Assembly (NCBI GenBank): GCA_024397995.1
Contig: CP073746.1
Span: 1,922,001-1,986,000 of the forward strand
Source: a bacterium SCSIO 12827
Lineage (GTDB): Bacteria; Pseudomonadota; Alphaproteobacteria; Rhodospirillales; Casp-alpha2
Direction of reading: 5' to 3'
DNA: 64,000 nucleotides
The translations under genes and the position numbers were made by a program. Below are positions 3,669 through 60,312 of this stretch, one piece after another. The notes beneath the pieces were generated by a model, which saw only the letters and a list, made by a program, of their open reading frames with translations, was not told where the DNA came from and searched no databases. Numbering within the stretch: position 1 is the first letter of the stretch; the number at the start of each line of letters is the position of its first letter.

Positions 3669-3681
3669 GCGCGGCGTAGAG

Positions 3682-4917: not shown

Positions 4918-4919
4918 GT
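4909..4919 (+). promoter_or_regulatory. 11-bp motif, copy 2 (candidate operator)
   Basis: Second exact copy of ACCAAATAGGT. It includes the TAG stop codon of the winged-helix-like gene and lies 80 bases before the outer-membrane protein start at 4999. Confidence 0.35.
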
Positions 4920-4998
4920 TACTTCAACGTTTTACTATTTTTTGAATTAAGATTAGCAACCTTAAGTAGTTAATCAATTGCTTGAGGGGCATCCCGTA

Positions 4999-43983: not shown

Positions 43984-44073
43984 GGATGGGTGGCCGAGCG
44001 GTTGAAGGCACTGGTCTTGAAAACCAGCAAGGGTTAACGCCCTTCGTGGGTTCGAATCCCACCCCATCCGCCA
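43984..44073 (+). tRNA. tRNA-Ser (anticodon TGA), integration site
   Basis: The acceptor arms GGATGGG (43984-43990) and CCCATCC (44063-44069) pair fully. The anticodon stem CTGGT/ACCAG encloses CTTGAAA, giving anticodon TGA. A long variable arm (AAGGGTTAACGCCCTT) is typical of tRNA-Ser, and the gene encodes its CCA. A tyrosine integrase follows 117 bases later, so the 3' end of this tRNA is the probable attachment site (attL) of the mobile element to its right. Confidence 0.96.
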
Positions 44074-44190: not shown

Positions 44191-45216
44191 ATGGCGACAT
44201 TCGAAAAAAGAGGCCCGGGCCTTTGGCGAGCGCGAGTACGCCGGCGAGGATTCCCAACCGCTAGCAAAAATTTTAAGTCAAAAGCCGAAGCACAGGCCTG
44301 GGCCCGGGACGTTGAAGGAGAGATTGACCGCGGTTCTTATCAAGGGAAGGCAGAGGCTGATCGGACAACTCTGCTAGAAGCTCTTGACCGGTACGAGAAT
44401 GAGGTGACACCTCAGAAAAAAGGCAGTCGTGTCGAAAAATACCGATTGGCACTCTGGCGTCGAGATCCCCTTGCCTCCCGGTCCCTGGGCTCTTTGCGTA
44501 GCGCGGACTTCGCCAAGTGGCGAGATTCCATGGTCGCTGATGGTTTCTCAGCCAGTAAAATCAGAAATGACCTCAACCTTATCTCGCATTTATTCAATAT
44601 CGCCCGCGTTGAGTGGGGATTTGAAGGCCTATCGAATCCGATAACACGGATTAGAAAGCCAAAGATGCCCGAAGGACGTGACCGAAGGCTCACGACGGAA
44701 GAAGAAATTGCTCTTTTAGCTGCTTGCAAGAACTCAAGGTCACACTGGCTGCTGGCCGTCGTCCAAGTGGCCATCGAGACAGGTATGCGCCTCGGTGAAA
44801 TTCTGTCACTCCGTCATTCAAACATTGATGTTTGGGAAGAAGGAGGGGTTTACCGTGGCGTCGCGCGGCTTGACGACACCAAAAACGGCACCAGACGCGA
44901 TGTTCCCCTTTCTCCTGCAGCAGTCCAAGCCCTTAAAGGGGTGCCGATCGATATCAACGGTAAGGTTTTTCCTATTTCACCGGAATCGATCAAAAAATCG
45001 TTCGGCCGAGCTGTAAAAGTAGCAAAATTGGCCGATTTGCGATTTCACGACCTCCGGCACGAGGCCACTAGTCGGTTTTTTGAGCAAGGCCTCGACATCA
45101 TGAGTGTCGCGGCGATAACCGGGCATAAGACTTTGGCCATGTTACAGCGATATACGCATCTCAGAGCCAGAGATATCGCAGCGAAACTCGCCACAAACAG
45201 CACTGCAAGCACATAA
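44191..45216 (+). CDS. Tyrosine recombinase (integrase of the island)
   Basis: A 341-residue phage-type integrase. An N-terminal arm-binding-like part (FEKRGPGLWRARVRRRGFPTASKNF) and a core-binding helical domain (about residues 58-155) precede the catalytic domain. All catalytic residues can be read: Arg200 (ETGMRLGEIL), Lys231, His286/Arg289 (HDLRHE), His312 (GHKTL) and Tyr321 (QRYTHL). It would integrate and excise the element at the adjacent tRNA-Ser gene. The frame is intact. The 434 bases after it (45217-45650) contain no gene I can support. Confidence 0.95.
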   Translation: MATFEKRGPGLWRARVRRRGFPTASKNFKSKAEAQAWARDVEGEIDRGSYQGKAEADRTTLLEALDRYENEVTPQKKGSRVEKYRLALWRRDPLASRSLGSLRSADFAKWRDSMVADGFSASKIRNDLNLISHLFNIARVEWGFEGLSNPITRIRKPKMPEGRDRRLTTEEEIALLAACKNSRSHWLLAVVQVAIETGMRLGEILSLRHSNIDVWEEGGVYRGVARLDDTKNGTRRDVPLSPAAVQALKGVPIDINGKVFPISPESIKKSFGRAVKVAKLADLRFHDLRHEATSRFFEQGLDIMSVAAITGHKTLAMLQRYTHLRARDIAAKLATNSTAST

Positions 45217-45650: not shown

Positions 45651-48017
45651 CTATCGAGAGCGATCCGGCTTCCTGGGTTTCCAGGGCCGCCGTTTTCGCC
45701 CCCGCTCCTCCTCAGCCATCGATGGATCACTTTGGTCAAGGGAAGGGCTTGTATCTGAACTTGTTGATGAAGATTCATCCTTCGCTGTGTGCATAGCGTT
45801 TTGGGCGTTTCGAGCGGACTGGTGATTCTCCCCACCAATGAAATCGGGGGAGTGAATTTGGTGTTTACGGATACCGTCACTGGTATCAGCCGCCCTCAAC
45901 ATATTTTTAATCGCTTGAGACTCCCGACCGATTCGATCAGCCATGCCCTCGGCCCCCGCCATGGCGAGCGCGGCTGGGTCAGAAATAATTCGCCGATCGA
46001 TATCGGATAATTCCCGACGCAAAACGCGCAGCGTCGCCCTCAGTTCCCGATCCTCAGCATCACTGCGGATCCGACGCCGCCGAAGTTCCTCATCCGCCTC
46101 GACTCGGCGGCGCCGGCGTTCCTCGCCCTCAACCGCGGCAAGCTCCGCCGCCGATCGCTCAAGGTCTACCGCCGCCGTCTCGGCGCGCCGGACCTGATCG
46201 ACACTCAACCCCTCGTCACCGCGCAACCGCTTTACAGCATCCGCACGTCGCAGACCGTGCTCCATATCGCACAGGCGGGACGCAGCTACCTTCGCACCTA
46301 ATGGCTCCAAGGCCGAAAGAATGTCGATCCGTGCGTCCTCTCGAAGGCGCTCCGCTGTGTCCCGGCGAACTATGTATTCGGCACCCTGTCGGCGCCACTC
46401 CCGCTCACTCAGGCGTCCGTCAGTCAATTTGCGCAACGTCACGTCAAGGCCCGTCAACACGCGTCCGCGCTCCGCGAGCAGCAGTTCGCCTCTGAGTTTC
46501 TGTTCCGCCAGTATTACTGCTTTTTCCGATTTCGCACGCCGCCGCTTTGCCTCGCGGAACTCCCGAGACGCCCGCGTCCGTTCGCTCTGGCCCCAGGCCC
46601 TGAGGTCGGCTGCGATCGCCTTAGCCTCGGCCCGCAGGCCGTCATCATCGTTATACTCGGCTGTGCTCTCGGGACGTCGCAAAACGTCGTTCGCGCGATG
46701 AGACGTGATCACCGCATTCGCCTCACATCGGCGATGTTCAATTGCCGCATCCACATATTGTTCGGCGGCCCTCGCCATCTCACGGGCCGCCTGCCCAACC
46801 CGAGGCGACAACGAGGCCGAGGCGCGCGCGGCAAGCTCGACTGGACCGACCAGGCGTCGCAGGTCCTCAGCGATGCCGTCGCGGGCCGCAACAACCTCGC
46901 CGGCAAGACGGAACATCATCTCCGCCGTCACGTTGCGCCGCCCCTTAACTGTCACCACGCCCTTGCGTTCCAGAGCCGCCGCCGAGACACCGAGATGCAC
47001 ACCGGGTTGCTTATCGATGCCCATCTTCTCGTAGGACCTGGGATCGTAGCGTCGGCGCATGCCCGCCGCCTCCAATTCGGCGTTCACTGCGTCGGCGAAG
47101 CGCTGACGCAACATGGGCAGGAACCCCATTTTCCTGGTCTCCGGCGCCTTGCGGTCGGCAAACCGCCAACCAAATACCGTCGGCTCGGCCGGGCGCTCGC
47201 AGTAGACCAGATGCATGTGAAAGTTCCGTGGGTCCGAATGGTCATCCGGACGGTGGACCGTCCCATGCCAGCGGAGCCCGAGATCAGCGAGAACGCCGCC
47301 GAAAGCCTCGACGATACGCCGGCGGCCATCAGCGCCGATTTCAGGCTCATAGGGCAGTTCGGCGATGATCACGCCCTGGACACGGCCGTCAGCGCGCTCC
47401 CGGCGCTCGACCATATCCCAGAACACCTCACGCTCATCAAAGATCTTCGCGATGTTACCGACCGACGAGCGCGTTCCATCATGCTCCGCAATCTCCACGG
47501 CCTCGTCACGCTCGATATACTTCTGACGCCGAGCCGCCGTCCCTGGCCGCTCTCCGCTGGCCTCAGTGACAAGGTGCGACACCCGCGCAAAGGTCGTATC
47601 GCGCGGCGCCGGGGTACCGACCGGAACCCACCAGGCACCGCGGTGCCCGGCGACGGAAACTCTCTTGTCGTACTTGGCGCCGGCGGCCCGCAACTCAGGC
47701 CCCCGTCCCTTTTCGTCGACGCGCAGATACAGGCGCTCGCCAAGGCGCAGGTCAGGGCGATAGCGCTTCGAGACCGTCTTGTGTGAAAAAATGAAGGTAT
47801 GCCCGCCCTCAGCCGTCCGGGGGCGGCTCGAAAACAGACCGGGCCGGCGCATATCCGCATAGTGCCGACCGCGCCCAAATACCCTCCAAAGCTTGGCGCC
47901 GCGACCTCGGATAATCTGCTCCATCATGTGTTCTTCGGCCTCGTTGAAGCGTCCCATCTTGATACGCTCAAGATCGTCCTCAAATACAGCGTCGAACAGG
48001 AACGGATTGCGGGCCAT
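45651..48017 (-). CDS. MobA/MobL-type relaxase (MOBQ)
   Basis: A 788-residue protein starting at the ATG at 48017 (MARNPFLFDAVFEDDLERIKMG); an open frame to 48101 adds an unconserved stretch. A conserved relaxase His motif is visible at about residues 260-269: HSDPRNFHMHLVY, of the form HxDxxNxHxH, preceded by a tyrosine-containing RQKYIERDE segment. It ends in a long charged coiled-coil region (residues 400-720, rich in Arg/Glu) and a basic Ser-rich tail. MOBQ relaxases nick plasmid oriT and lead mobilisation. A candidate oriT lies 236 bases upstream. There is no type IV secretion system in view, so transfer would need a helper. Confidence 0.82.
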   Translation of the reverse strand: MARNPFLFDAVFEDDLERIKMGRFNEAEEHMMEQIIRGRGAKLWRVFGRGRHYADMRRPGLFSSRPRTAEGGHTFIFSHKTVSKRYRPDLRLGERLYLRVDEKGRGPELRAAGAKYDKRVSVAGHRGAWWVPVGTPAPRDTTFARVSHLVTEASGERPGTAARRQKYIERDEAVEIAEHDGTRSSVGNIAKIFDEREVFWDMVERRERADGRVQGVIIAELPYEPEIGADGRRRIVEAFGGVLADLGLRWHGTVHRPDDHSDPRNFHMHLVYCERPAEPTVFGWRFADRKAPETRKMGFLPMLRQRFADAVNAELEAAGMRRRYDPRSYEKMGIDKQPGVHLGVSAAALERKGVVTVKGRRNVTAEMMFRLAGEVVAARDGIAEDLRRLVGPVELAARASASLSPRVGQAAREMARAAEQYVDAAIEHRRCEANAVITSHRANDVLRRPESTAEYNDDDGLRAEAKAIAADLRAWGQSERTRASREFREAKRRRAKSEKAVILAEQKLRGELLLAERGRVLTGLDVTLRKLTDGRLSEREWRRQGAEYIVRRDTAERLREDARIDILSALEPLGAKVAASRLCDMEHGLRRADAVKRLRGDEGLSVDQVRRAETAAVDLERSAAELAAVEGEERRRRRVEADEELRRRRIRSDAEDRELRATLRVLRRELSDIDRRIISDPAALAMAGAEGMADRIGRESQAIKNMLRAADTSDGIRKHQIHSPDFIGGENHQSARNAQNAMHTAKDESSSTSSDTSPSLDQSDPSMAEEERGRKRRPWKPRKPDRSR

Positions 48018-48181
48018 ACGGTACCTTTTTGGACGAATTGCGATACGAGCACGGCACTGTTCTGTTTGCCGACACGTGCGACTCAGCAGCGCAGTTCTCA
48101 TCCACCTAAATAAATAATTCCCTGATGTTCACCCACTTGTCCACGGCGAATTTTCCGCGATTAGGCTGGGTGTTACTGATC

Positions 48182-48461: not shown

Positions 48462-49178
48462 TCAGGACATCGCCCGTTCCAGGCGAAGTTTCCGCTTTTG
48501 CCAGTCAGGCATGACGCGTTCCAAGAGATCGAAGAATGCAGCCCCGTGGTGCGGCTCCTGGATGTGGCAAAGTTCATGGGTGAGGACATAATCAATTGCA
48601 TCGACCGGCGCTTGGACCAGACGCCGGTTCACCATCAGCCGGGATGCCGGAGACATGGATGCCCACCGACTACGTAGATCCCTGATGACCAATCCCCCGG
48701 GTCGGTAAGCATCCGGATTGGGGAACCTTTGGAGGCACACCTCAATACGCTCTCCGAACTTCGCCTGAGCTCGATTGTGGTACCAGGCCGTAACCAGGTC
48801 GCGGGTGAGATCCGAGTCCTTTGGGCGTGCACTGAACACCTCAATGAACCCACGTTTTATCTTCACGCTATGCTCGCTCCCGGCACGAACTCTCAGGCGA
48901 TACTGCCGGCCGAGGTAGAGATGCGTCTCGCCAGAGACGAACCGCCTTTCGGGCGTCCGCGGCATGAATTGAGAGAAGTATCGGCGCTGTTTCAGTATCC
49001 AACCCGCGCGCTTTCGAACCTTCTCGCAAATGGCGTCCGAAGTTGCATCTACCGACGCTGTCACGACGACTTTCATGTCAGGCTCAACAGCAATCTCCAG
49101 GGTCTTGCGGTCCCGTCGTCGAATGATGAAATCAATGCGCTGATCGCCGAAGAGAATATGGCTGGAGAATCCGCTCAT
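48462..49178 (-). CDS. SprT/YgjP-like metallopeptidase (M48-type)
   Basis: A 238-residue protein. The zinc motif VLTHELCHIQEPHHGAAFF (HExxH at residues 201-205) and the Trp-Lys-rich LERVMPDWQKRKLRLERAMS C-terminus fit the YgjP/DUF45 family of SprT-like metallopeptidases, often found next to type I restriction genes. It is the last gene of the restriction operon; its ATG overlaps the hsdR stop by four bases. What it cleaves is unknown; a role in handling restriction complexes on DNA is possible. Confidence 0.85.
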   Translation of the reverse strand: MSGFSSHILFGDQRIDFIIRRRDRKTLEIAVEPDMKVVVTASVDATSDAICEKVRKRAGWILKQRRYFSQFMPRTPERRFVSGETHLYLGRQYRLRVRAGSEHSVKIKRGFIEVFSARPKDSDLTRDLVTAWYHNRAQAKFGERIEVCLQRFPNPDAYRPGGLVIRDLRSRWASMSPASRLMVNRRLVQAPVDAIDYVLTHELCHIQEPHHGAAFFDLLERVMPDWQKRKLRLERAMS

Positions 49179-52100
49179 CCGGGGAATCTCGCCCGCGCCA
49201 GGCCCATGATTTTCTGCTCCAGGTCGTCCATCGTCTCAACCGAAATATCGAGCCCCTTCGCGTCCCGGAGTTCATCGAAGAAATAGTCATCGATCGCGTT
49301 CTTCATCTTGTTCTGGATCACCTCGTTGGACCAGACGTCGACGATATGATGCTCGATGATGATGCGGATAATGACCAAGGCGATTTCCGCCAAATCATCG
49401 GGTGGCACACTCTGCCCGCCACTTCCGTTAAGGCTGGATTGAAGAACGCCAAAAAACGCTTCCGCGTGGTCGTTGCCACGGATGGAAACAGGGATGTCCT
49501 GTCCCCGCTCCTTGCGCGCGACACTGCCGGCCAGATCGACCACTTTGGACAGGTATTCTTTTTCGGAAATCCGCTTCAAGCGATATTCCCGAATGGTCGC
49601 TTCCAGCATCTCGGAGAATTCTTGATAGAAGACAGGGTCCGCTTCCATGCGCTCCGTGATGGCTCGTTTCGTGGCGCTGGCAATTCGGTCCGCCTTCGAG
49701 CTTTCCGATAACCCTTTGGCCTCGACAACGGCCTCAAGGGCCTGCGTGTCGTTGATGTTGACCAGATCGATGATCGTCTCTGCCGGCATCGCGATGACAT
49801 GGTCATCGAGAAGCTTCTGGATCTTGGGTTCAAACTCCTTGATGTCGACGACCTCCTGATAGCGGACCTGGACGGACCGCCGCAGTTCCGAGAGCTGCTT
49901 CCAGTCCTGCTTGAACCCCGCCACTTCCTTGTCGCTGTGCACGTCGAACAGCTTGTCTGACGACAGGGCGATGTGCAGGCAGCGGCTGAATGCACGAAGG
50001 CGGTCATAAAATTCCCGGCGCTTGGCTTCGTCGCCGAGGAATTGCTCGAAGGCTTCCATATCCTTCTTGTTGGCCACCTGTTTGAACAGGTCCCACAACT
50101 GGTCGTGCAGCTGCGGCAGCTTACGTATTTCTTCGCGGATGTCATGGACCGTGCCCACCAGATCGGCGGCATCAAAACTTTCGAAAGCGCTATAGGTCGT
50201 GAGCGCCCGATCCAGTTCCCCAAGCAACCCCTCGTAGTCGAGGATAAAACCGAACTGTTTCTCCTTGTTCCCGTCCTCGAACAGGCGGTTCACGCGGGCG
50301 ATGGCCTGAAGCAGGGTGTGCTCCTTCAGCTGCTTGCAGACGTACAGCACTGTGTTGCGCGGCGCATCGAACCCGGTCAGCAACTTGGAAACGACAATCA
50401 GGATTTCCGGATCGCCCGATCCCTTGAAGGAATCGACAATCTGTCGGTTGTATTCCTCTTCCGACGCGAACCGCTTCATCATCCCGTCCCAGAATTTACG
50501 GACGACGTCCTTTGACTCCTTATCCACTTCCTCGTTGCCTTCATGGTCGTCGGGCGCCGAAATGACGATCTCGCTGGTCACGTGGCCGATCTCGTCCAAA
50601 ACCTCCTTGAAACGGATCGCCGCGGCCTTGGACGGCGCCACGAGCTGCGCCTTGAAGCCCGTGCCCTGCCAGTGCTGGCGAAAATGTTCGGAGATGTCGA
50701 AGGCCTTGGCGCGGATCGCTTGCTGCGTCTTGGCGAGCGCATCCATACGGGAGAACTTGCGCTTCAGGTCCGCCTTCTGCTCGTCCGTCAATCCCGCGCT
50801 GATTTTCTCGAACCACTTGTCGATCACGTCGCCGGTGATCTGCTGTTCGACCAGACGTCCTTCGTAAAGCAACGGCACAACCGCCTCATCGGCAACAGCG
50901 TCGTCGATGGTATAGGTGTCGATCAGCTTGCCGAAGGTGGAAAGCGTGTTGCGCTCTTTCTTCAGCAATGGCGTGCCCGTAAAGCCCAGGTAACAGGCGC
51001 GGGGCAACAAACGGCGCATCTTGTTGTGGAAGGTTCCGTATCCGCCGTAACGGCCTGTCTGGCTGCGATGGCTTTCATCGATCAGGACAAAAAGGTTCGG
51101 GTCTTCGTCAGAGAATTTGCCGGCCCGCAAGGCCGTGTCGAATTTATTGATGATGGTCGTCACCAGGGGCGTCTTGTCACGGATCAGGTCCAAAAGATTG
51201 CTGCCGCTTGTCGCGCGCACCGGCTCCATCTCGCAGGCCTTGAAGGTTCCCTTGATCTGTCTGTCCAGGTCGTCACGGTCGGTGACGATGATGATGCGTG
51301 GATTTTTGATGTCCCGGTCCATGGCGAGTGCGCGGCCGAGCATGACCATCGTCAGGGACTTGCCGGAGCCCTGCGTATGCCAGATCACGCCCCCCTGCCG
51401 GACACCACCGGCGCCGAGTTGCTTCACCCGCTCGATGGCCTTGCGGACGCCTAAATACTGCTGATGGCGGGCGATTTTGCGCTCACCACCATCAAACACC
51501 GTGAAACGACGTACCAGATCCAACAGCCGTTCCGGCCGGCAAAGCGCATAAATGGTGCGATCCTGATCGGTGATGGCGCGGTCGCCTTCTGCCGTCAGAG
51601 CATCGAAATAAGCCTTGGCGCTGGCAAACTCCCCATCGAACACGGCCTGTTCCTCCGCCAACCCCATGGGCTGGTTGACCAGGCCCGACAACGGGACGTC
51701 CGCGGCGTCATGCGCCATGTCCTCAAGGGCATCGGCAAACGTGTCCCGCTCATTCTCCGTCAAGCCTCGCGCCGTCAGCGGCGTCAGCTGGGCATCGCTG
51801 CCCCCCTCCTCCCGCCAGACCTGCCAGAACTTCGCCGGCGTGCCGACGGTGGCGTAACGCGCCGCCTTCCGATTCATGGTCATCAAAAGCTGCGCGTAAT
51901 GGAACAGATGCGGGATGTTGTCTTCGCCCTGATACTGGATCAGCTGGCTCTGCGCCTTTTTCAGGCCCACCGTCGGCCGTTTGTTCTCAATGACGACGAA
52001 AGGAATACCGTTGACGAAACAGACGATGTCAAGCCGCCGGGTCTGCGTGCTGGCCGTGCGTTCGACCACCATCTCCGCCGTCACGTGATAAACGTTGTTC

Positions 52101-52495
52101 TCCGGGTTCTCCCAATCCACATAGCGGAATGAATAGCTCTTGCTGTCGCCATCAATGCTCTTGGTGATGGTCGTGCCCAGGACCAGAAGGTCGTAAATGT
52201 CCTGGTTGGTGCCGCGCAGGCCTTTCAGCTTGTCCGGCGTGGGCTTCAGGCGGCGGACTGCCTCGTGCGCGTCTTCCAGATCGAATGGATACGCGCGGCC
52301 CCGGTGATGGAAACGGTTTAGGTTGAGCACCTGATCGATGAGAACATCATCCAGCACCACATTGCGCAACCGCCCGCCCCGCAGCTTTTCCGCCTGTGCC
52401 TGCGACAGCGGCTGATAGCCGAGCGCCACCAGGAGCTGGATGGCCGGGATCTGAGACTGATGCTTCTCTGCTGGGTCAAAGCCTTGAGAACTCAT
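49175..52495 (-). CDS. hsdR: Type I restriction enzyme R subunit
   Basis: A 1106-residue motor-nuclease. The PD-(D/E)xK nuclease site reads LDIVCFVNGIPFVVIENK (Asp156, Glu170, Lys172). The helicase part has Walker A HTQGSGKSLT (374-380), the DEAD-type box LIDESHR, and later superfamily 2 motifs (VVSKLLTGFDAPRNT, QAIARVNRLF). It translocates DNA and cuts when the site is unmethylated. Its ATG overlaps the kinase stop by four bases and its own stop overlaps the peptidase start, so the nuclease is translated within the chain that includes the kinase. No damage is visible. Confidence 0.96.
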   Translation of the reverse strand: MSSQGFDPAEKHQSQIPAIQLLVALGYQPLSQAQAEKLRGGRLRNVVLDDVLIDQVLNLNRFHHRGRAYPFDLEDAHEAVRRLKPTPDKLKGLRGTNQDIYDLLVLGTTITKSIDGDSKSYSFRYVDWENPENNVYHVTAEMVVERTASTQTRRLDIVCFVNGIPFVVIENKRPTVGLKKAQSQLIQYQGEDNIPHLFHYAQLLMTMNRKAARYATVGTPAKFWQVWREEGGSDAQLTPLTARGLTENERDTFADALEDMAHDAADVPLSGLVNQPMGLAEEQAVFDGEFASAKAYFDALTAEGDRAITDQDRTIYALCRPERLLDLVRRFTVFDGGERKIARHQQYLGVRKAIERVKQLGAGGVRQGGVIWHTQGSGKSLTMVMLGRALAMDRDIKNPRIIIVTDRDDLDRQIKGTFKACEMEPVRATSGSNLLDLIRDKTPLVTTIINKFDTALRAGKFSDEDPNLFVLIDESHRSQTGRYGGYGTFHNKMRRLLPRACYLGFTGTPLLKKERNTLSTFGKLIDTYTIDDAVADEAVVPLLYEGRLVEQQITGDVIDKWFEKISAGLTDEQKADLKRKFSRMDALAKTQQAIRAKAFDISEHFRQHWQGTGFKAQLVAPSKAAAIRFKEVLDEIGHVTSEIVISAPDDHEGNEEVDKESKDVVRKFWDGMMKRFASEEEYNRQIVDSFKGSGDPEILIVVSKLLTGFDAPRNTVLYVCKQLKEHTLLQAIARVNRLFEDGNKEKQFGFILDYEGLLGELDRALTTYSAFESFDAADLVGTVHDIREEIRKLPQLHDQLWDLFKQVANKKDMEAFEQFLGDEAKRREFYDRLRAFSRCLHIALSSDKLFDVHSDKEVAGFKQDWKQLSELRRSVQVRYQEVVDIKEFEPKIQKLLDDHVIAMPAETIIDLVNINDTQALEAVVEAKGLSESSKADRIASATKRAITERMEADPVFYQEFSEMLEATIREYRLKRISEKEYLSKVVDLAGSVARKERGQDIPVSIRGNDHAEAFFGVLQSSLNGSGGQSVPPDDLAEIALVIIRIIIEHHIVDVWSNEVIQNKMKNAIDDYFFDELRDAKGLDISVETMDDLEQKIMGLARARFPG

Positions 52496-53571
52496 ATGCC
52501 TTCCACAACAGCTTTGACGAACTTGGCAATTTCCCTTTTGGCTATTCCGTTCGTCACATTTGCATGACAGTACTTTGCACAGCGTGTTTCGCGTCCGGTT
52601 TTTTGGCTCCGCTTGAATGCGTGGACGTCGTATCGATTGCCTGCCTTCTTCGATTGTTCGAAGCGATAACTGTATGCTCCATTGCGGCCAACAAAATCAC
52701 CGTTAGCCTCGACAGTCCAATATCCAGGATAATTTAGCTTCTCCAGCTCACGGCGCATTTCAAGAGCCGACTGATACCTCTCCCTATGATCGGGATGCGT
52801 TGCTTTATGGATGATTCTCCTCAGCCGCGAAGGGACGTATGCTGGGAAGTCGGTCGTTGAAATCAGGTTGGCTTGCGCTACTGCGTTGTAATACGCCTGC
52901 TCTCCAAGCGCGTTAAACTTCTGCCTAAGGGTATCAAGCCCCACAGCCATACGAAAAAGCGTAAGCCCCGTCTGAAAAACATCCGTCTGCGCTGTAATTG
53001 CGTTCGCGTTAAGCACCTCGGGAGCAGCATGAATTTTATAAAAATTCGGGGGGGGGACCGGCGCTCCGCCTTGTGTAACACCGACAATTCCGTAGTCGGT
53101 GAGCATACCCTGTCCTTGCGGACCTAAGAGCACATTTTCTGGCTTCACATCATTATGAATGAAGTCATGTCCATGAAGATATTCGAGGCCACGCAGGATA
53201 TCCTGGCCAACCCTGATGATCTCAGGAAGGGGAAGATAGAGTGATGGATTGGCAAGCTTTATGACCGGGCCATTGGGCATATAGTCCATTGCGATGATGA
53301 CATAGTCATGCTGGCCGAGGCGGGTAATGTCGGCTTGGTGCACACGGACGACGTTGTTATGGTTGAGGCCGTGCCCAATTTGCGCCTCACGGAGCCGATG
53401 GTGAACGGGTATGCCTGGTTTCAGTATCTTTATTGCGTATTCATGGCCGACGGCTTGATCATCGGCGAGCCAGACCTCGCCAAAGCTGCCACTGCCAATG
53501 CGATGACGAAGGCGGTATTTGTAAAGCTGGTTGCCTGGTAATAGCTGCGCTATGGGAGACGGATGTGGCAT
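52492..53571 (-). CDS. Ser/Thr protein kinase inside the restriction operon
   Basis: A 359-residue protein starting at the ATG at 53571, whose TAATG overlap with the previous stop decides the start (an upstream frame runs to 53667). The kinase domain has P-loop GSGSFGEV (26-33), Lys48 (AIKILK), Glu62, catalytic loop HNDVKPENVLL (Asp141, Lys143, Asn146), DYG in place of DFG (Asp159) and APE. HND replaces HRD, making it a non-RD kinase, so it may not need activation-loop phosphorylation. The C-terminal 70 residues (YWTVEANGDFVGRNGAYSYRFEQSKKAGNRYDVHAFKRS) are basic and may bind nucleic acid. No membrane segment exists. It is translationally coupled to hsdR and the RNase H-like gene. Confidence 0.92.
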   Translation of the reverse strand: MPHPSPIAQLLPGNQLYKYRLRHRIGSGSFGEVWLADDQAVGHEYAIKILKPGIPVHHRLREAQIGHGLNHNNVVRVHQADITRLGQHDYVIIAMDYMPNGPVIKLANPSLYLPLPEIIRVGQDILRGLEYLHGHDFIHNDVKPENVLLGPQGQGMLTDYGIVGVTQGGAPVPPPNFYKIHAAPEVLNANAITAQTDVFQTGLTLFRMAVGLDTLRQKFNALGEQAYYNAVAQANLISTTDFPAYVPSRLRRIIHKATHPDHRERYQSALEMRRELEKLNYPGYWTVEANGDFVGRNGAYSYRFEQSKKAGNRYDVHAFKRSQKTGRETRCAKYCHANVTNGIAKREIAKFVKAVVEGI

Positions 53572-54029
53572 TAAGTGCGCGCTCCGTTCCATGCCGCGAT
53601 CACGGCATCGGCCATCTTGGTATCCCAGTATTTCACCGTCCGGCCCACACGCTGCTCCGCATGGCATTTCACGTCTGCGCTTCGTGTTGCGAGCGATGCA
53701 TAGATTTTGACTGTGACCGGTAGAGTTTTCTGTCGACAGAACAGCAATACGGCACCTTCGAGATAAGCGGACTCCCGCTTGGCTTTGCTATCGCTCTGTG
53801 TGTACTCATTTGTCTTTATGCAAACCTTCGAGATGTCCTGATTTTCATGCAGAACTCGCTCCAACTCTCTATAGAGCCAGTCAACCTTTTCATCCGGCTC
53901 CGTCACATTGGCGGGGTAGGACAAGCGTGACTCAGCATCGGCATTGAGCAGCGTGAAGTCTGTACCGTCGTAGTCGATCAGTGCATATCGGGTTTTCTTC
54001 GGATCAACCCGAATTCCCAGGACTTTCAT
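53571..54029 (-). CDS. Small RNase H/RuvC-fold-like protein
   Basis: A 152-residue protein. The opening MKVLGIRVDPKKTRYALIDYDG, a middle VCIKTNEYTQSDSKAKRESAYLEGAVLLFC and the ending KYWDTKMADAVIAAWNG follow the order of RNase H-fold (RuvC/YqgF-like and DUF3010-like) proteins: a first strand with Asp, a strand followed by an acidic residue, and a last helix with Asp-xxx-Ala. The normal first GIDxG motif is changed to GIRVDP, so catalysis is uncertain. ATG overlaps the hsdS stop; its TAA overlaps the kinase ATG. The family and role in restriction are not established; this is my inference. Confidence 0.6.
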   Translation of the reverse strand: MKVLGIRVDPKKTRYALIDYDGTDFTLLNADAESRLSYPANVTEPDEKVDWLYRELERVLHENQDISKVCIKTNEYTQSDSKAKRESAYLEGAVLLFCRQKTLPVTVKIYASLATRSADVKCHAEQRVGRTVKYWDTKMADAVIAAWNGART

Positions 54030-55249
54030 CCGACTGCCTCCTTCTGGGCCTCACTCGTTACACGCCATTCTCCGGTCAGGAGCTTCTGCATCAGGCCACG
54101 CTTTTGGCGTGTGAGGGTTTCGATCTGTTTATCGAGAAGATTCAGCTCATCCTTCATCGCTGTAAGCGCCCGACCGATTTGCCGCTGCTCATTGAGCGGC
54201 GGCACGGGAACTCGGCAGCCAAAGAAATCTTCTGCGTTCAAATTCAAAAGCCCATCGTTGCGGACGCCTGAATTAATTAGACGTGAAAGCTGGTGGTTGA
54301 GCGCCCCTGCCGCGAGGAGATGTTCATAGAACCCGTGGTCGAGTTCCGGCTTCAGCGCAAAGCAGAAATAGACAAACGGCACGAGTGCGCTTGGACGATC
54401 GAGTTTGAAGATACAGCCGTAGGGAGCTGTAAGAGAGTTGCCCTTGTTGTAGGCGAACTCACCCTGATGCAGCACGATGTAACGATCTACGCTGCGGCCC
54501 GCCATATCGCGACTGAACTTGTCCGACTGCATAAGAAATCCGGACTTCGCCGAGATAGTCATGACAGGGTGGTCATCACCCCCATTCTGGCGGCGGATGC
54601 GAGTAGATATTGAGGAAAGTGGCCGCATCTCCCAGCGCTCCAGAAAAACTCCGCCGCGCCCCATCAACTGTTGCGTATAGCCAGCTAACTGCCGTTCCTT
54701 CGCCGCCCGCAGCGCTTCCAGCTTTTCGATGGCCTCGTCCCATGTGCGGAGGATTTCCGCGATCTTGCATTGTTCTGGAAGTGGTGGGAGAGAAAAACAG
54801 AACTGAGACAGCGTATTCTGGCTGAGGTTGTTGATGCTCGAGCCTCCGCCCATCTTATGAAGATGCTCTTTGAACAACGGCGACCGGACCAGCTTCGACG
54901 CAAAGCTGTGGTCGATTTCGTCTGACTTGACGCGCCCCCTGATCGTAAACCCCGAAAACGAAATCGGCTCGGCTATCCCGCTGATCAATACGCAGCGACC
55001 GATCAGGGCCTTATTGCCGTTGGAGCGTACGAAAAGCAGGTCATCGTTTTCGAGAAGGTCATCAGGGTTGACCTTCCCATTGAGTGTGATTGATTGGGTC
55101 TCGGAGAAATCGTTGAGCACTTCTTTGTCTTTGAAATCGCCGACTCCAATGACCTTAACCTGTTCACCCTGCGATGCCTGTGTGAAGTTCATCCCATTTC
55201 GAAACTCTAGAAGGTCAGCAAGGGATTTGCGTTTCCATCCCTCAAGCAT
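54026..55249 (-). CDS. hsdS: Type I restriction specificity subunit, two-TRD
   Basis: A 407-residue protein starting at the ATG at 55249 (MLEGWKRKSLADLLEFRNGMNF); the open frame to 55396 lies inside the rhuM gene. It has two target-recognition domains: residues 10-165 and 215-375. Each ends in a conserved coiled-coil helix (PLPEQCKIAEILRTWDEAIEKLEALRAAKERQLAGYTQQLM; PPLNEQRQIGRALTAMKDELNLLDKQIETLTRQKRGLMQKLL). It defines the bipartite DNA site for the HsdMS and HsdRMS complexes. It overlaps rhuM by eight bases and the RNase H-like gene by four. Confidence 0.93.
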   Translation of the reverse strand: MLEGWKRKSLADLLEFRNGMNFTQASQGEQVKVIGVGDFKDKEVLNDFSETQSITLNGKVNPDDLLENDDLLFVRSNGNKALIGRCVLISGIAEPISFSGFTIRGRVKSDEIDHSFASKLVRSPLFKEHLHKMGGGSSINNLSQNTLSQFCFSLPPLPEQCKIAEILRTWDEAIEKLEALRAAKERQLAGYTQQLMGRGGVFLERWEMRPLSSISTRIRRQNGGDDHPVMTISAKSGFLMQSDKFSRDMAGRSVDRYIVLHQGEFAYNKGNSLTAPYGCIFKLDRPSALVPFVYFCFALKPELDHGFYEHLLAAGALNHQLSRLINSGVRNDGLLNLNAEDFFGCRVPVPPLNEQRQIGRALTAMKDELNLLDKQIETLTRQKRGLMQKLLTGEWRVTSEAQKEAVG

Positions 55250-56267
55250 CGCCGCCCCCCTTTTTCCGATCTTTTGACGTTTCGGCGATGCGTTCCAGTT
55301 CCTCGATATCGTCGGCTTGCTCGGCGGCGATCCGCTCCGCCTCCTTCCGCTTGGCGTCGAATTCCGCATAACGCTGATGCGCAATCCGTCCGGCATCCGC
55401 AGCCGATATGCTGCCGGCGTTGCGCAATAGCGGCAGGTCGTTCGATTGCAGGAAGGTGTCGAGGACGCCCTCCCATTCGCTCAGCTTCATCGTCTCGCGG
55501 CGCCGGGCGCGGAGCTCCGCTGTATCGAGGAACATCGTGACAATGAGGTTGAGGTCCTTGATCTCGGCTTCGCCGAGATAGTTCTTGGCCGTGGAAACGT
55601 CACCCTTGCGGACCCGGGCGCCTTTCCATGTGGTCAGCCCCATATTGGGCTCGTTCGAGTTCGCGCGTGTTGCAATAAGCTCCGCTGCCGTGTGGCTGGT
55701 GATCGCGTGGAGCATCTTGTTCTGAATTTTTGCGTAGAACTCGGTCGCCACGCGGGACTTGGGGTCATAGTCCTCGCTCAACGCCAGAAGGTCGCGGACC
55801 TTCTGGTAGAAGCGCGCTTCCGATGCCCGGATGTCCCGGATGCGCTCAAGAAGCTCGTCGAAATAGTCCCAGGCCGGGTCCTTGAGGCGCTCGTCGTTCA
55901 TAACGAAGCCCTTGACCAGATACTCCTTCAGGGCCGTCGTCGCCCAACGGCGGAACTGCGTGCCGCGCGGCGAGCGCACGCGATAGCCCACCGCCAGAAT
56001 GACATCGAGATTATAATGCTTCAGGTTCCGCTTGACTTGGCGTGCGCCTTCCATGCGAACTTGTAAGAGATTGTTACAAGTTGCCGCCTCGGACAGCTCA
56101 TCCTCATCGTATATCGTGCGGACAAGCTGGGTGATGGCCTGCGGTGTGGTCTGGAACAGGTCCGCCATCTGGGCTTGCGTCAGCCAGACCGTGCCGTCGA
56201 CCGCCCGGAGCTCGATCCTCGCCGCCCCGTCCTCGGTGGTATAGAGGATCAGCTCGCCTTCAGACAT
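55242..56267 (-). CDS. RhuM-family protein
   Basis: About 341 residues, starting at the ATG at 56267; a GTG two codons before is better spaced from the AAGGAG ribosome-binding site, so either may be used. The RhuM core is clear: VWLTQAQMADLFQTTPQAITQLVRTIYDEDEL at the N-terminus, NLDVILAVGYRVRSPRGTQFRRWATTALKEYLVKGF, and MLHAITSHTAAELIATRANSNEPNMGLTTWKG. RhuM proteins are frequent passengers in type I restriction operons but their role is unknown. It overlaps hsdM by eight bases and hsdS by eight. Confidence 0.92.
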   Translation of the reverse strand: MSEGELILYTTEDGAARIELRAVDGTVWLTQAQMADLFQTTPQAITQLVRTIYDEDELSEAATCNNLLQVRMEGARQVKRNLKHYNLDVILAVGYRVRSPRGTQFRRWATTALKEYLVKGFVMNDERLKDPAWDYFDELLERIRDIRASEARFYQKVRDLLALSEDYDPKSRVATEFYAKIQNKMLHAITSHTAAELIATRANSNEPNMGLTTWKGARVRKGDVSTAKNYLGEAEIKDLNLIVTMFLDTAELRARRRETMKLSEWEGVLDTFLQSNDLPLLRNAGSISAADAGRIAHQRYAEFDAKRKEAERIAAEQADDIEELERIAETSKDRKKGGGDA

Positions 56268-57777
56268 CGACACCTAGCTCCTTCAGGTAGCCCTCCATCT
56301 TCGCCCGCACGTCAGCGAGTTCCTGTTCCAGGCCGTCGATTTCCTTCTGCACGGCGGCGATGTCGATTTCCTCCTCCGGCTCGAAGGTGTCGACATAACG
56401 GGGAATGTTCAGGTTGAAGCCGTTCTCAGCGATTTCTTCCGGCGTTGCTTGGTGGGAATACTTGTCGATCACCGCGCGGGTTCGGTGGGTTTCCACCACC
56501 TTGTCCGTATGGGCGTCGTCCATCACGTTCTGGGTCTTACCGGGCGTGAATTCCTTGCTGGCGTCGATGAACAGAACGTCCTTGCGGTCTTCGTTGGCGC
56601 CGCCCTGTTCGCGCGAACGGTCGAAGACCAGGATGGCGACGGGAATGCCCGTCGTGGTGAACAGATTAGCCGGTAGACCGATGACGGCATCGAGCAGATT
56701 TTCCTCGATCAGCGCCTGACGGATTTTGCCCTCCGCCCCGCCCCGGAACAGCACACCATGGGGCACGATGACGGCGACGCGGCCGCTCTGGCGCTTGGCG
56801 ATTTCGATCATATGGGTGATGAAGGCGTAGTCGCCCTTGGACTTGGGCGGGACGCCGCGCCAGAACCGCTCATACTGGTCATCAGCCGCGTTTTCCGCCC
56901 CCCATTTATCAAGGGAGAACGGCGGGTTGGCGACGACCACGTCGAACTTCATCAAATGATCGCCCTCGATCAGGGTCGGATTGTTCAGCGTGTCGCACCA
57001 TTCGATGCGTGCTGCATCCTTGGAATGGAGAAACATATTCATGCGGGCGAGCGCCCAGGTGGCACCGTTCACTTCCTGGCCATAGAGGGCATAGTTGTCG
57101 GAGCCCACTTCCTCCGCCGCGCGAATCAAGAGCGAGCCCGATCCGCAGGCCGGATCGCAGATGGTGTTCCCCGGTTGCGGATTGGCAAGCCGGGCCAGCA
57201 GGCGCGAAACGGGGGCCGGCGTATAGAACTCACCGGCCTTTTTGCCGGCGTCGGAGGCGAAGCGGGAGATCAGGTAGATATAGCATTCGCCGATGATGTC
57301 TTCCGTCACCCGCGACGGGCGCAGGTCCAGGGCCGGCTTGGCGAAGTCCTCCAACATGTTCTTGAGCCGGCGGTTGCGGTCCTTGGCGCGGCCCAGATTG
57401 GCTTCGGAATTGAAATCGATGTTGCGGAATACGCCTTCCAATTTGGTGCGGTTGGTGTCTTCTATCTTTTCCAAGGCGATGTTGATGAGCTCGCCGATAT
57501 TGGCTTCGGTGCTCTGTTCATAAAGGTCATAGAAGCTCGCCCCCTCGGGCAGGACGAAGCGCTCGCGCTCCAGCCGCCGGCGGATGCGGGCATCGTCCTC
57601 GGCAAACTGCTTGCGGTACTTTTCCAGGTGGTCGTTCCAGAGATCGGAGATATATTTCAGGAACAGCATCACCAGGATGTAGTCCTTGTACTGTGCCGGA
57701 TCGACGGCCCCGCGGAACGTGTCGCAAGCGGCCCAAGCGGCCTGATTGACCTGGTTTTGCGTGATCTGATCGGTCAT
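56260..57777 (-). CDS. hsdM: Type I DNA methyltransferase M subunit
   Basis: A 505-residue N6-adenine methyltransferase. An N-terminal HsdM_N helical domain is followed by the SAM motif DPACGSG (208-214) and the catalytic NPPF (284-287). The C-terminal segment after about residue 455 is a coiled coil (EEEIDIAAVQKEIDGLEQELADVRAKMEGYLKELG). It methylates adenine at sites chosen by the S subunit and protects the host. Its ATG overlaps the stop of the upstream half-S gene by four bases. Confidence 0.97.
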   Translation of the reverse strand: MTDQITQNQVNQAAWAACDTFRGAVDPAQYKDYILVMLFLKYISDLWNDHLEKYRKQFAEDDARIRRRLERERFVLPEGASFYDLYEQSTEANIGELINIALEKIEDTNRTKLEGVFRNIDFNSEANLGRAKDRNRRLKNMLEDFAKPALDLRPSRVTEDIIGECYIYLISRFASDAGKKAGEFYTPAPVSRLLARLANPQPGNTICDPACGSGSLLIRAAEEVGSDNYALYGQEVNGATWALARMNMFLHSKDAARIEWCDTLNNPTLIEGDHLMKFDVVVANPPFSLDKWGAENAADDQYERFWRGVPPKSKGDYAFITHMIEIAKRQSGRVAVIVPHGVLFRGGAEGKIRQALIEENLLDAVIGLPANLFTTTGIPVAILVFDRSREQGGANEDRKDVLFIDASKEFTPGKTQNVMDDAHTDKVVETHRTRAVIDKYSHQATPEEIAENGFNLNIPRYVDTFEPEEEIDIAAVQKEIDGLEQELADVRAKMEGYLKELGVDV

Positions 57778-58376
57778 CTCGGGTTTGTTCCTTTTTCCCC
57801 CGCGCTCGCGTTCCGCGCGCAGTCTAGCAAAATTTTTCGCATCATCAGACGCCGGGTTTCAACCAACCGCTCCGACAGCGCCCTCTCTTGTTCAGCAAGT
57901 GCGTCGATGGCAACGACGGCTTGCTGGGTCTTCAGGTCCGGGACATCGATTTCAAGGGCTCCCAGGCTGGATTTCGGCACCATGCGAAGGCTTGTGCCTT
58001 GAGCGTCTTGCTCAAAATGGCGCTGTGCAGGGGCTTGGTTGATCGCCCAGGCAAGATACTGAGGCAGGATGACATTCCGGTGCGGACGCAGGATCATCAG
58101 GGGCGACAACGCCACGGCCGGTTCCGCGAACCGGCGGTCCAACGCCGTTGCCGTGGTTCGCTCGCCCCGAGACCGGAACAGGACATCACCTTCCCGAACC
58201 ATGTATCGGCCCGAAATTTCACCCAGGGAATAGCGCCCGAGATCTCGGGCGCTGATCTCTCCGTCAGATGCGATATCGCGTAGCCTGATACCCCGCAGGC
58301 CGCCGGAAGGCGCAAAATCGAGCGCACCGCGATGGGTGTAGCCAAGCTGGATTTCCGTGATGCCATCAAGGCGCAT
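57774..58376 (-). CDS. Single-TRD, S-subunit-like protein
   Basis: About 200 residues. I favour the ATG at 58376 (MRLDGITEIQLGY), with AGAG upstream, though an ATG at 58394 is also in frame. One target-recognition domain is present (IRLRDIASDGEISARDLGRY...YMVREGDVLFRSRG...LAWAINQAPAQRHFEQDAQGTSLRMVPKSSLGALEIDVPDL), followed by a coiled-coil helix (QQAVVAIDALAEQERALSERLVETRRLMMRKILL). That is half of a normal HsdS. Two copies could form a dimer that recognises a symmetrical site, or it may exchange with the full-length HsdS. It is the first gene in the operon. Confidence 0.8.
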   Translation of the reverse strand: MRLDGITEIQLGYTHRGALDFAPSGGLRGIRLRDIASDGEISARDLGRYSLGEISGRYMVREGDVLFRSRGERTTATALDRRFAEPAVALSPLMILRPHRNVILPQYLAWAINQAPAQRHFEQDAQGTSLRMVPKSSLGALEIDVPDLKTQQAVVAIDALAEQERALSERLVETRRLMMRKILLDCARNASAGEKGTNPR

Positions 58377-58385
58377 TATATTTCT

Positions 58386-58403
58386 CTGTAGCATGCTCTA
58401 CTG
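58386..58403. promoter_or_regulatory. Inverted repeat operator, copy 1
   Basis: CTGTAG-catgct-CTACTG. It matches copy 2 at 58444 in 11 of 12 arm bases. It lies at the start of the restriction operon, over the 58394 ATG and directly downstream of a TTGCAT-n17-TATCGT promoter on the minus strand, where bound protein would block transcription. Confidence 0.55.
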
Positions 58404-58479: not shown

Positions 58480-59229
58480 ATGTCGGAATTCGCTGCCCTC
58501 GTCGCCAGAATTACTCGTGAAATCAACTCCACCAGAAGGGCGATGCCACCAACCCTCGCGGTACAGCCCGCCCTCCCCGACCGTCCGATCCGAGCGACAG
58601 AGCTAATTACCCACAACGGCTGGAAATACCGGGCGCTGATACCAGGCGTTATTCACGCCTGGCCAGATGACCGGGATTTTTACGAAGGTGTCCTGGCCCT
58701 CTGGCATGCCGTCCTCGCCGCACCGGCTAGGCGTTTGGTGGACGCCTTCCGCACAGGCCTCGGCCCCATCCTAACTGGCGCTATCGTCGTCACTGGTCGC
58801 TCCGTGAGTTTAGACAAGCCCCTGACGGTTATGGCCGATGCCATCACGAACTATTTCGATTTCGATGAACCGGAAATTCTGGGCCAGTTCTGCCCGGTGC
58901 TTAGCCTTTCCGCCACCACACCGGTCGAGAGCTTCCTCAAAGAGGTGATGCGCTGCTACCGCTATAATGGGCAGCTATCGGAAGAAGAATACCAACTTGC
59001 CGAAACGGAGATGTATTCCGACGCGGAGCCGAGATCCGCAGAATTCCCTCCCGGACGCCTCGACAATATCGGAGAGGTCATTACAAGGCCGGGCGGCGCG
59101 GACAAAAAAGCCTTTAGGATCTGGATTGCTGCCGGCGAGATCCTGGCTGAGGATCATCCTCGGTTCAAGGTTGAGCCACGGATGATCGAACCCGCCACCC
59201 GCTGGCCGGAATCCCTGAAAGCGACCTGA
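58480..59229 (+). CDS. Protein of unknown function, divergent from the restriction operon
   Basis: A 249-residue protein with GGAG before the ATG. I do not recognise the family. Features: no signal peptide or membrane segment; a hydrophobic middle (DFYEGVLALWHAVLAAPARRLVDAFRTGLGPILTGAIVV), then an acidic part (ITNYFDFDEPEILGQFCPVL) and FLKEVMRCYRYNGQLSEEEYQLAETEMYS. The last third is polar (EVITRPGGADKKAFRIWIAAGEILAEDHPRFKVEP). It starts within 12 bases of TATAAT, so its transcript is almost leaderless. The shared operator type links it to the restriction operon; a regulator or accessory protein is possible but not shown. Confidence 0.6.
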   Translation: MSEFAALVARITREINSTRRAMPPTLAVQPALPDRPIRATELITHNGWKYRALIPGVIHAWPDDRDFYEGVLALWHAVLAAPARRLVDAFRTGLGPILTGAIVVTGRSVSLDKPLTVMADAITNYFDFDEPEILGQFCPVLSLSATTPVESFLKEVMRCYRYNGQLSEEEYQLAETEMYSDAEPRSAEFPPGRLDNIGEVITRPGGADKKAFRIWIAAGEILAEDHPRFKVEPRMIEPATRWPESLKAT

Positions 59230-59610: not shown

Positions 59611-60312
59611 ATGATGTCCACTGCCACCGTTCAGCTTCAAAATGGGAAGCGGCTCTCCTTGCGGGGCCTAAGAGGCGCTTGCAGGCTTTTTGCCGGAGTC
59701 AAAGCGGTCGCTGGTCAGTGCGAAGTGCACTATTCGGCATTGGGTAAATGGCTCAAGGGAGAGCCGGCGCTTGCGCAGGCAAAAGCCGACGCTGTGCTAA
59801 ACGCCTTGCGCCTGCCAAATGGAGAACCAGTTTCTAACGAAGTTATCGTTTGGTCCTTCAAAGTCTATTGGGATGACATCCAGGGTGCGATGAAGCTGTA
59901 TTTTCCCGATGGGGCCGAAGTGGTGCGGACGCCCTGGTCAAGGCCAGGACTGAACAATGCCTCGAAATTCCTTCGATACCTCAACAGCGGTTTAGAAGAC
60001 CCGCCGGAGCTGTTTCTGATTAGCGACGGTCGAACCCGTGCCGTCTTTCGGCAGGCACCAGGATTTTTGGTTTATGAAGACCAACTGGGTGACGGGTTCC
60101 GAATGCGTGGCAGATCGACCAAAGACTGCCAGTTCCGAGTAGGCCCACGCAAGGACGCCTGGTTTACCGGAACAATTACCCCGCAAATGTTCGACGAAGC
60201 TTTTGCAAGTCGGTTTATTGGTTGGGACGAAGTAGCCAGAACCGCAGAGGACAATGGCATTGACTCGAATGCCGTGTACGAATGGCTGCAGTCAAAAAAG
60301 CACCAAACTTAA
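59611..60312 (+). CDS. HTH-containing protein of unknown function
   Basis: A 233-residue protein (a second ATG follows at 59614). Residues about 22-70 (ACRLFAGVKAVAGQCEVHYSALGKWLKGEPALAQAKADAVLNALRLP) look like a helix-turn-helix of XRE type, with the recognition helix VHYSALGKWLKG. The remaining 160 residues (VYWDDIQGAMKLYFPDGAEVV...FLRYLNSGLEDPPELFLISDG) form a mixed domain I cannot identify. The good promoter and flanking inverted repeat suggest it is autoregulated. It is likely a regulator of the element. Confidence 0.65.
   Translation: MMSTATVQLQNGKRLSLRGLRGACRLFAGVKAVAGQCEVHYSALGKWLKGEPALAQAKADAVLNALRLPNGEPVSNEVIVWSFKVYWDDIQGAMKLYFPDGAEVVRTPWSRPGLNNASKFLRYLNSGLEDPPELFLISDGRTRAVFRQAPGFLVYEDQLGDGFRMRGRSTKDCQFRVGPRKDAWFTGTITPQMFDEAFASRFIGWDEVARTAEDNGIDSNAVYEWLQSKKHQT

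Follow-up and report, generated by a model that had tools for sequence, protein, structure and literature searches.

The closest described counterparts of the locus treated here are a prophage-borne kinase and defence genes that are embedded in type I restriction (hsd) loci. According to passages of two reports, the Stk kinase of phage 933W is activated on infection by phage HK97 and excludes that phage (PMC3681748, PMC6356687). In Escherichia coli E2348/69, DarTG2 lies between hsdS and hsdR on the RptR island, as described in a section of PMC12255303, and PrrC, which is also situated in an hsd locus, is activated when EcoPrrI is inhibited (statements in part of PMC12707154). Here, we analysed a stretch of 64,000 nucleotides (the window; contig CP073746.1, positions 1,922,001 to 1,986,000) of the alphaproteobacterium SCSIO 12827, in which a type I restriction operon carries, between hsdS and hsdR, a gene pair that encodes a small protein (X) and a protein kinase (K). 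Based on sequence comparison and on the analogy with Stk, we consider it fairly probable that X–K is a mobile anti-phage module of two genes that is complete in itself, of the kind found at the stk locus of lambdoid phages, and that it travels as cargo in a mobile type I restriction operon. The loci and genomes that were compared are denoted by L and G numbers, respectively.

The operon and its additional gene pair

The operon consists of eight open reading frames (ORFs), all on the minus strand, in the following order:

57774-58394, minus strand: half-S with one target-recognition domain, 206 residues, the first gene of the operon and a component of the hsd backbone (PADLOC Specificity_I, E 1.4e-19)
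56260-57777, minus strand: HsdM, 505 residues (Pfam N6_Mtase, 4.8e-99, and HsdM_N, 5.7e-30; TIGR00497 above its cut-off)
55242-56273, minus strand: RhuM family protein, PDC-S05 (Pfam Virulence_RhuM, 1.3e-108; PADLOC PDC-S05)
54026-55249, minus strand: HsdS with two target-recognition domains, 407 residues (Pfam Methylase_S, 6e-17, in two stretches; PADLOC Specificity_I, 1.6e-98)
53571-54029, minus strand: X, 152 residues, a predicted pseudo-RuvC protein and the partner of the kinase (predicted fold and Foldseek match to RuvC)
52492-53571, minus strand: K, a eukaryotic-type Ser/Thr (or Tyr) protein kinase, 359 residues (Pfam Pkinase, 1.8e-36)
49175-52495, minus strand: HsdR, 1106 residues (TIGR00348, 457.6 bits against a cut-off of 284.55; Pfam HSDR_N and SWI2_SNF2)
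48462-49178, minus strand: YgjP-like zinc metallopeptidase, the final gene of the hsd backbone (Pfam YgjP-like, 1.1e-49)

The longest ORFs were trimmed at the starts of hsdS (to 55249) and of the kinase gene (to 53571, giving 359 residues); the longest ORF of rhuM begins at 56273, and the ATG at 56267 is its likely start (55242-56267). With HsdM, an HsdS with two recognition domains and an HsdR with nuclease and motor domains, the operon has the components of a type I restriction-modification system. ATGA overlaps were found at the half-S/hsdM, hsdS/X, K/hsdR and hsdR/peptidase boundaries, a TAATG overlap at X/K and eight-base overlaps at hsdM/rhuM and rhuM/hsdS, which confirms an earlier note on this DNA that had described eight consecutive, fully overlapping genes on one strand. 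Such coupling alone is no evidence of a shared mechanism because, in a related operon (L046), KwaB of the Kiwa system occupies the same place and its gene overlaps the hsdR ORF by four bases too. Two names given in that note were refined. The term RNase H-like was right as to the kind of protein, X having a predicted RuvC fold, but no model of Pfam, NCBIfam, PADLOC or PHROG matches X; the SprT-like peptidase is indeed a peptidase, but YgjP-like is the better name (E 1.1e-49 compared to 0.032 for SprT-like).

Recurrence of X–K in restriction operons

A tblastn search with X returned three plasmid records, two of which were near-copies; in Methylocystis parvus pMpar-1 and Novosphingobium resinovorum pHR1a, X–K lies between hsdS and hsdR, and half-S comes first. 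Three X proteins were used to scan approximately 85,000 species genomes, which yielded 17 loci, and two more hsd loci came from a scan of viral contigs. Altogether, X–K was found between hsdS and hsdR in 18 examined loci (the window, L003-L009, L011, L012, L014-L017, L020, L021, L024 and L025), whose hosts are mostly Alphaproteobacteria and include two metagenome-assembled genomes of Acidobacteriota. These loci have two divergent backbones, namely type A (13 loci; HsdM 82-87% and HsdR 69-74% identical to those of the window) and type B (five loci; approximately 62% and 41-44%, respectively); the HsdM of L014 was seen only as a part of 260 residues. In an alignment of 12 type-A rows, HsdM showed 83-87% identity. 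The earlier note would have regarded the link as accidental if the two genes were absent from all of the other copies of the operon; the pair is kept in 18 hsd loci, so its link with the operon is not accidental, and the possibility that X–K is a local accident was rejected.

An intact K directly follows X in 32 of the 35 X-bearing loci that were opened. The three exceptions are L007, in which K is frame-broken, L018, in which a broken X stands after the end of hsdS and no K was seen, and L133, in which K is in three pieces that are followed by an insertion sequence. The X profile matched one of 385 genomes of the class and the X protein one of 100 relatives, in both cases the genome of the window itself; the module is rare and mobile.

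The remainder of the operon is partly constant. The single-domain half-S precedes HsdM in most of the related operons, regardless of whether X–K or other cargo is there and in addition to the full two-domain HsdS, and the YgjP-like peptidase follows HsdR wherever the 3' end is visible. Between hsdM and hsdS lies a further cargo slot (55242-56273 in the window and L003:6909-7859), which is occupied by RhuM (PDC-S05) or by a DUF4357 protein (PDC-S14, annotated as GIY-YIG), or is empty. Because RhuM is swapped for the DUF4357 protein or is absent in the relatives, it is a separate, variable insert.

The hsdS–hsdR interval as an exchangeable slot

Scanning was also performed independently of X. 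Viral contigs were seeded on the type-A HsdM, which gave 35 loci, and the whole hsdS–hsdR interval was visible in 16 of them. A single DUF3800 protein was the commonest occupant of the interval (six loci: L084, L086, L087, L101, L102 and L105); three intervals were empty, X–K and PDC-M04A+B were present in two loci each (X–K on the contigs of L024 and L025), a DUF4917 protein alone in two (L085 and L100) and Shedu together with PDC-M04A+B in one (L096). Therefore, 14 of the 16 hsd operons lack X–K. Across all 16 loci, HsdR is 72-74% identical to that of the window in 14 (among them L080, where it reads as two pieces with 72 and 66% identity), 69% in L099 and 50% in L103. At E 1e-100, HsdR matched 11 of 385 and HsdM 10 of 289 genomes of the class.

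Other related operons broaden the range. The slot contains KwaA and KwaB (Kiwa; E 1.3e-78 and 6.2e-120) in L046, a DUF3800 protein in L045 and PDC-M04A+B in L048, the backbone of which is more distant. PDC-M04A stands before HsdR at the contig end in L047, where hsdS lies outside the view; among the more distant loci, L114 and L115 have an unknown ORF in the slot, and HsdR is outside the view in L116. The scan with the type-B HsdM gave seven relatives (50-57% identity), and HsdR was visible in six, of which five are cargo-free; the remaining type-B-like operon has two unknown ORFs of 583 and 226 residues between hsdS and hsdR (L126:13057-15488). Because related hsd operons carry different cargo or nothing at this place, the interval is, judging from gene content, an exchangeable cargo slot. 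It swaps known defence systems (Kiwa and Shedu) with unknown ones, so an inventory of its contents may offer a directed route to new systems.

Two of the other occupants deserve mention. The six DUF3800 proteins that were scanned against PADLOC gave no match or marginal matches only. In two type-B operons, a DUF4917 protein (PDC-S21) lies between K and HsdR and is 86-87% identical to that of L010, a locus without hsd genes; it directly follows K in L009:10532-11614, L011:10532-11614 and L010:10529-11611. The DUF4917 proteins matched SIR2_2 below the cut-off only.

X–K without hsd genes

At six loci (L010, L013, L019, L022, L023 and L026), no hsd gene accompanies X–K in the flanks that were fetched, which covered up to 9 kb per side and, upstream of L013 and L023, less than 1 kb. 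In L010, the DUF4917 gene comes directly after the pair, L019 has a DUF4917 remnant and L013 adjoins a resolvase. L022, L023 and L026 are situated among phage genes; each of them has the terminase large subunit (phrog_9, E at most 1.5e-77), the portal was tested and found in L026, and a primase was found in L022. Beside the pair of L013, a minus-strand HATPase protein, weakly Shedu-like at its C-terminus, and a peptidase-like gene (2638-5379) are perhaps another defence unit.

The genome of the window has a second, divergent X–K pair of 151 and 345 residues on the minus strand (G000:C1:2384700-2386210; L136:4706-6205), which was reached independently by the kinase search (2384.8 kb) and by the Stk-X profile (2385.9 kb). 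No hsd gene was seen in the 11 kb opened around it, and its neighbours appeared by eye to be metabolic or regulatory. Further pairs are present in G317 (L119) and G619 (L137). The pair of the Bacillus SPbeta-like phage SPbetaL7 (L130:2486-4038) is annotated as hypothetical only; with it, the module reaches Gram-positive hosts. When viral contigs were scanned with one X as the query, the sole locus hit was L002 (61% over 18 residues), and neither a K nor an hsd gene was seen there.

The distances of X and K correlated with r 0.955 across 23 loci and with r 0.954 across the 16 hsd loci with HsdM, and in the same 16 loci the correlation with HsdM was r 0.709 for X and 0.697 for K; all of these values are inflated by shared ancestry. 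The ratio of nonsynonymous to synonymous rates (dN/dS) was 0.013-0.084 for X and 0.045-0.082 for K in the eight of nine pairs that had a defined ratio, phage-only pairs included, with dS above 1 in several pairs and the window saturated against L005. As judged from these ratios, X and K are under purifying selection. In the tree of K, type B groups with the phage copies and the lone copies in a single clade, type A is divided into two, and the Stk relatives lie outside.

X as a predicted RuvC fold with an altered pocket

The predicted model of X has a predicted local distance difference test (pLDDT) score of 91.7 and was matched by Foldseek to RuvC structures (E 5.1e-10; template modelling (TM) score 0.81). 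The profile of X matched that of RuvC with a probability of 85.7% (E 5.5e-6; residues 1-98), while 40 shuffles reached at most 1.8%. This probability rose from 4% to 33% and 86% as divergent X rows were added, with the first comparison (4%) using 14 of the 20 RuvC loci, the other six having been missed by the motif filter. The predicted model and the profile match both point to a RuvC fold. A sequence relative of X in the PDB was rejected, as the sole match was a designed repeat protein and was driven by repeats.

The catalytic acids of E. coli RuvC (Asp7, Glu66, Asp138 and Asp141) are only partly represented in X. The profile alignment, which covers approximately two thirds of X, places Arg7 of X opposite Asp7 of RuvC and Lys72 opposite the catalytic Glu66. 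Residues were counted in 34 sequences (24 close and 10 divergent rows, some of them near-copies; the broken X of L018 was left out, and the structure alignments also omitted L003 and L004). At position 7, 33 of them have Arg and one has Asn; all 34 have Lys or Arg at position 72, 33 have Glu at position 75, and 33 have Asp or Glu at position 141. Of the 24 close X proteins, 23 carry Lys at position 138 and all carry Asp at position 141, these two positions having been matched to RuvC by eye and not by the profile. X therefore lacks the set of four catalytic acids of RuvC resolvases, as the first two aligned positions are basic. Based on the alignments and the predicted model, X is probably a binder, i.e., a protein of the RuvC fold whose pocket charge is inverted and whose nuclease chemistry is lost. 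As it looks like a nuclease fold turned into a binding module, X is a candidate for how infection triggers the kinase.

The kinase and the probable link to the Stk locus

K consists of a kinase domain and a C-terminal domain of approximately 75 residues. The catalytic residues K48, E62, D141, K143, N146 and D159 are conserved in all 32 aligned kinases (the frame-broken K of L007 was not included). A fold search with K returned kinases of every kind, and the C-terminal domain was not identified among the 50 matches listed. K matched phrog_2361 'serine-threonine kinase', the family of phi24B Stk (E 2.2e-47; 163 bits), and shares 28% identity with phi24B Stk across 257 residues (113 bits), compared to 59 bits for the unrelated viral kinase of L044. 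The match to the profile of Stk relatives extended over residues 15-350 (E 2.7e-59), features common to all kinases included. At E 1e-60, the K profile matched two of 372 genomes of the class, namely the genome of the window and G317; the G317 kinase as a query led to phi24B Stk and to kinases on Providencia and Klebsiella plasmids.

In phi24B, an unannotated RuvC-like ORF of 153 residues overlaps the start of stk, and in sister phages the protein is labelled 'RuvC-like Holliday junction resolvase' by RefSeq and PHROG (phrog_3875). An ORF of approximately 150-170 residues that lies directly before the kinase gene and overlaps or nearly touches its start was also found in G317, G619, the second copy of the window's genome, Providencia, Klebsiella variicola, an E. 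coli plasmid, Mesorhizobium and SPbetaL7. The profile of the 24 close X proteins matched that of the 10 divergent ones with a probability of 95.7% (E 9.6e-9; 40 column shuffles reached at most 0.9%), and on this basis the ORF upstream of phi24B stk is a remote homologue of X. phrog_3875 was matched by the second X of the window's genome (1.5e-7), the X of G619 (9.6e-46) and the X of SPbetaL7 (3.6e-22). Among 5,426 E. coli genomes, 223 matched the phi24B X-stk DNA, 221 of them over at least 80% of it. We propose that the upstream RuvC-like gene of approximately 150 codons, which overlaps the kinase start in the window and its relatives, defines an Stk-type module; this is our own proposal and not a published rule.

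Discussion

The reading that we favour, i.e., a self-contained module carried as cargo, could work as follows. X would bind a nucleic acid or a protein that is produced during infection and would hold or release K; once released, K would phosphorylate host proteins and the cell would stop before the phage matures. Sensing by X and the target of phosphorylation are inferred, and so is the abortive outcome, for which we draw on published statements on the Stk of 933W. Restriction would be the first line of defence and X–K the second, and the two would share transcription and mobility but not necessarily a mechanism.

Several observations weigh against this reading. The tree of K is also compatible with an ancestral hsd association and its later loss from the phage copies and the lone ones. 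The pair lies inside hsd in 18 of the 25 close X-bearing loci, a sample that was drawn with X itself, and may therefore have a functional link with restriction. The X proteins of L016 and L021 are near-identical (dN 0.014) and their kinases very different (dS 3.0), and thus X and K have recombined apart at least once. In the case of the kinase, the match to phrog_2361 is confined to the kinase domain (residues 12-280), generic plasmid kinases score approximately 100 bits against K, and the C-terminal tails of K and Stk aligned alone gave a weak match (E 0.018, probability 2.5%, with 30 shuffles reaching at most 1.0%). The L044 kinase also matches phrog_2361 (E 2.2e-40; 139.9 bits), and this match was therefore withdrawn as proof of kinship with Stk, which slightly lowered our confidence in the module reading. 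As regards X, neither the X of the window nor that of G317 matches any PHROG, and when window-type X was compared with just six Stk-type X, the probability was only 45-59% (at most 4.6% in 30 shuffles). Because the kinase matches are not specific to Stk, the link to Stk rests chiefly on X and on the gene order.

A more specific version of the module hypothesis is tentative. The constant partner of a broad family of Stk-type immune kinases might be a charge-inverted pseudo-RuvC protein that gates a suicide kinase. In this version, the retained resolvase fold would serve to detect phage DNA that is branched or recombining (or else a recombination protein of the phage), with Arg and Lys in place of the metal-binding acids. 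If so, X–K within hsd would combine sequence-specific restriction and a junction-sensing suicide layer in one mobile locus.

The chief rival, which we regard as unlikely, is that X–K acts as a guardian like PrrC: the intact Hsd complex would hold it inactive and it would fire when a phage antirestriction protein disables restriction. The activation of PrrC upon EcoPrrI inhibition, as given in part of PMC12707154, offers a precedent, X–K keeps its hsdS–hsdR place on two divergent backbones, and the occupants of the slot could generally be guards. However, X–K is under purifying selection, as far as the ratios indicate, also where the fetched flanks have no hsd genes, and these lone copies make a guardian less likely; moreover, the lone and type-B copies of K group closely in the tree, so no hsd-specific adaptation is visible.

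It is also rather improbable that X–K is a toxin–antitoxin system, with K as the toxic kinase and X as the antitoxin, that is selected for the retention of mobile elements and not for phage defence. The small gene comes first and overlaps or touches the kinase start, as would be expected of such a pair, and it is found on plasmids, prophages and islands. However, a RuvC fold with near-invariant pocket residues is unlike a small disposable antitoxin, and Stk of 933W was reported as a phage-exclusion gene (in a passage of PMC3681748), although both readings can overlap.

The earlier note had suggested that the kinase and its partner may sense infection or switch HsdR activity, as a kinase-regulated restriction system. 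A role in sensing infection is retained as a possibility in the reading that we favour. In a regulated system, K, with the help of X, would phosphorylate HsdR or HsdS and infection would switch restriction. The tight translational coupling of K to hsdR and the position that is conserved in 18 loci agree with this, but we now consider it quite improbable and not the best reading. The pair occurs at six loci with no hsd gene in the flanks retrieved, also alone in phage contigs, and 14 of the 16 related hsd operons run without it; in the slot, it alternates with known self-contained systems, one of which, Kiwa, is equally coupled to hsdR, and the distances of X follow those of K (r 0.954) better than those of HsdM (0.709). 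Finally, an active RuvC-like nuclease with K as its regulator is very unlikely because, in spite of the RuvC fold, Glu75 and the acidic residue 141 (each kept in 33 of 34 X proteins) and the resolvase label given to the Stk partner by RefSeq and PHROG, the first two catalytic-acid positions are acidic in none of the 34 (7: Arg 33, Asn 1; 72: Lys or Arg 34).

Genomic setting of the operon

The operon appears to sit on a mobile island, as indicated by an integrase at a tRNA-Ser gene and a relaxase beyond the operon:

43984-44073: tRNA-Ser (ARAGORN)
44191-45216, plus strand: tyrosine integrase adjoining tRNA-Ser, the probable edge of the island (Pfam Phage_integrase, 3.4e-27)
45651-48101, minus strand: MobA/MobL-type relaxase, a sign of a mobilisable island, downstream of the operon (Pfam MobA_MobL, 1.3e-14)

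No second copy of the tRNA-Ser end was found in the window with up to three mismatches allowed, and a search for island-flanking direct repeats gave eight short imperfect pairs, none of which was convincing. Two plus-strand genes lie upstream of the operon; that at 58480-59229 has no Pfam match at E 10 or below, and that at 59611-60312 has insignificant Pfam matches only.

Comparison with known systems

The embedding of defence genes in hsd loci is already known. Our literature search found no paper on X–K in hsd or on X with Stk, and neither the charge inversion of X nor the hsd location of the pairs was found in the literature searched; preprints were not covered, including that of Payne et al. 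on embedding (doi 10.1101/2024.01.29.577857; cited in PMC12988326), which possibly contains the pair. As far as the relevant part of PMC12255303 goes, the DarTG2 locus shares with the window a two-gene defence unit in the hsdS–hsdR slot and a metallopeptidase gene downstream, but its cargo is a toxin–antitoxin system of another kind and the regulator RptR stands in front where the window has half-S. PrrC, as portrayed in sections of PMC12707154, is likewise an infection-aborting gene that is embedded in an hsd locus; in contrast, it is an anticodon nuclease and not a kinase, and its activation by Hsd inhibition is a feature of PrrC. Kiwa (L046) and Shedu (L096) occupy the same slot of related hsd operons, and their proteins are unrelated to X–K.

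Among the systems with a kinase, MADS is similar in that the MAD6 kinase stands beside type I-like M and S, and MAD6 is the best PADLOC match of K (144 bits). However, K reached 118.9 bits against the NCBIfam MAD6 model, the cut-off of which is 460, no other MAD gene exceeded its cut-off, HsdR is present in the operon of the window and X has no NCBIfam hit. Membership in BREX or Pgl was rejected, with K at 42.6 bits against PglW (cut-off 990), and X as a component of MADS, BREX or Pgl was also rejected, as the curated cut-offs were not reached.

The stk locus of phi24B, the record of which is noted as similar to 933W and on which the comparison was made in place of the 933W sequence, agrees with X–K in the gene order, the gene lengths, the overlapping starts, the RuvC-like partner and the eukaryotic-type kinase. 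The differences lie in the setting, which is beside cI in a prophage as opposed to a restriction operon, and in the kinase motifs, which are HND and DYG in K but HFD and DFG in phi24B Stk. Both the phi24B partner and X begin with LGxR and have a basic residue where the fourth strand ends. Since the phi24B record leaves this conserved partner of stk unannotated, studies confined to Stk may have overlooked half of the system.

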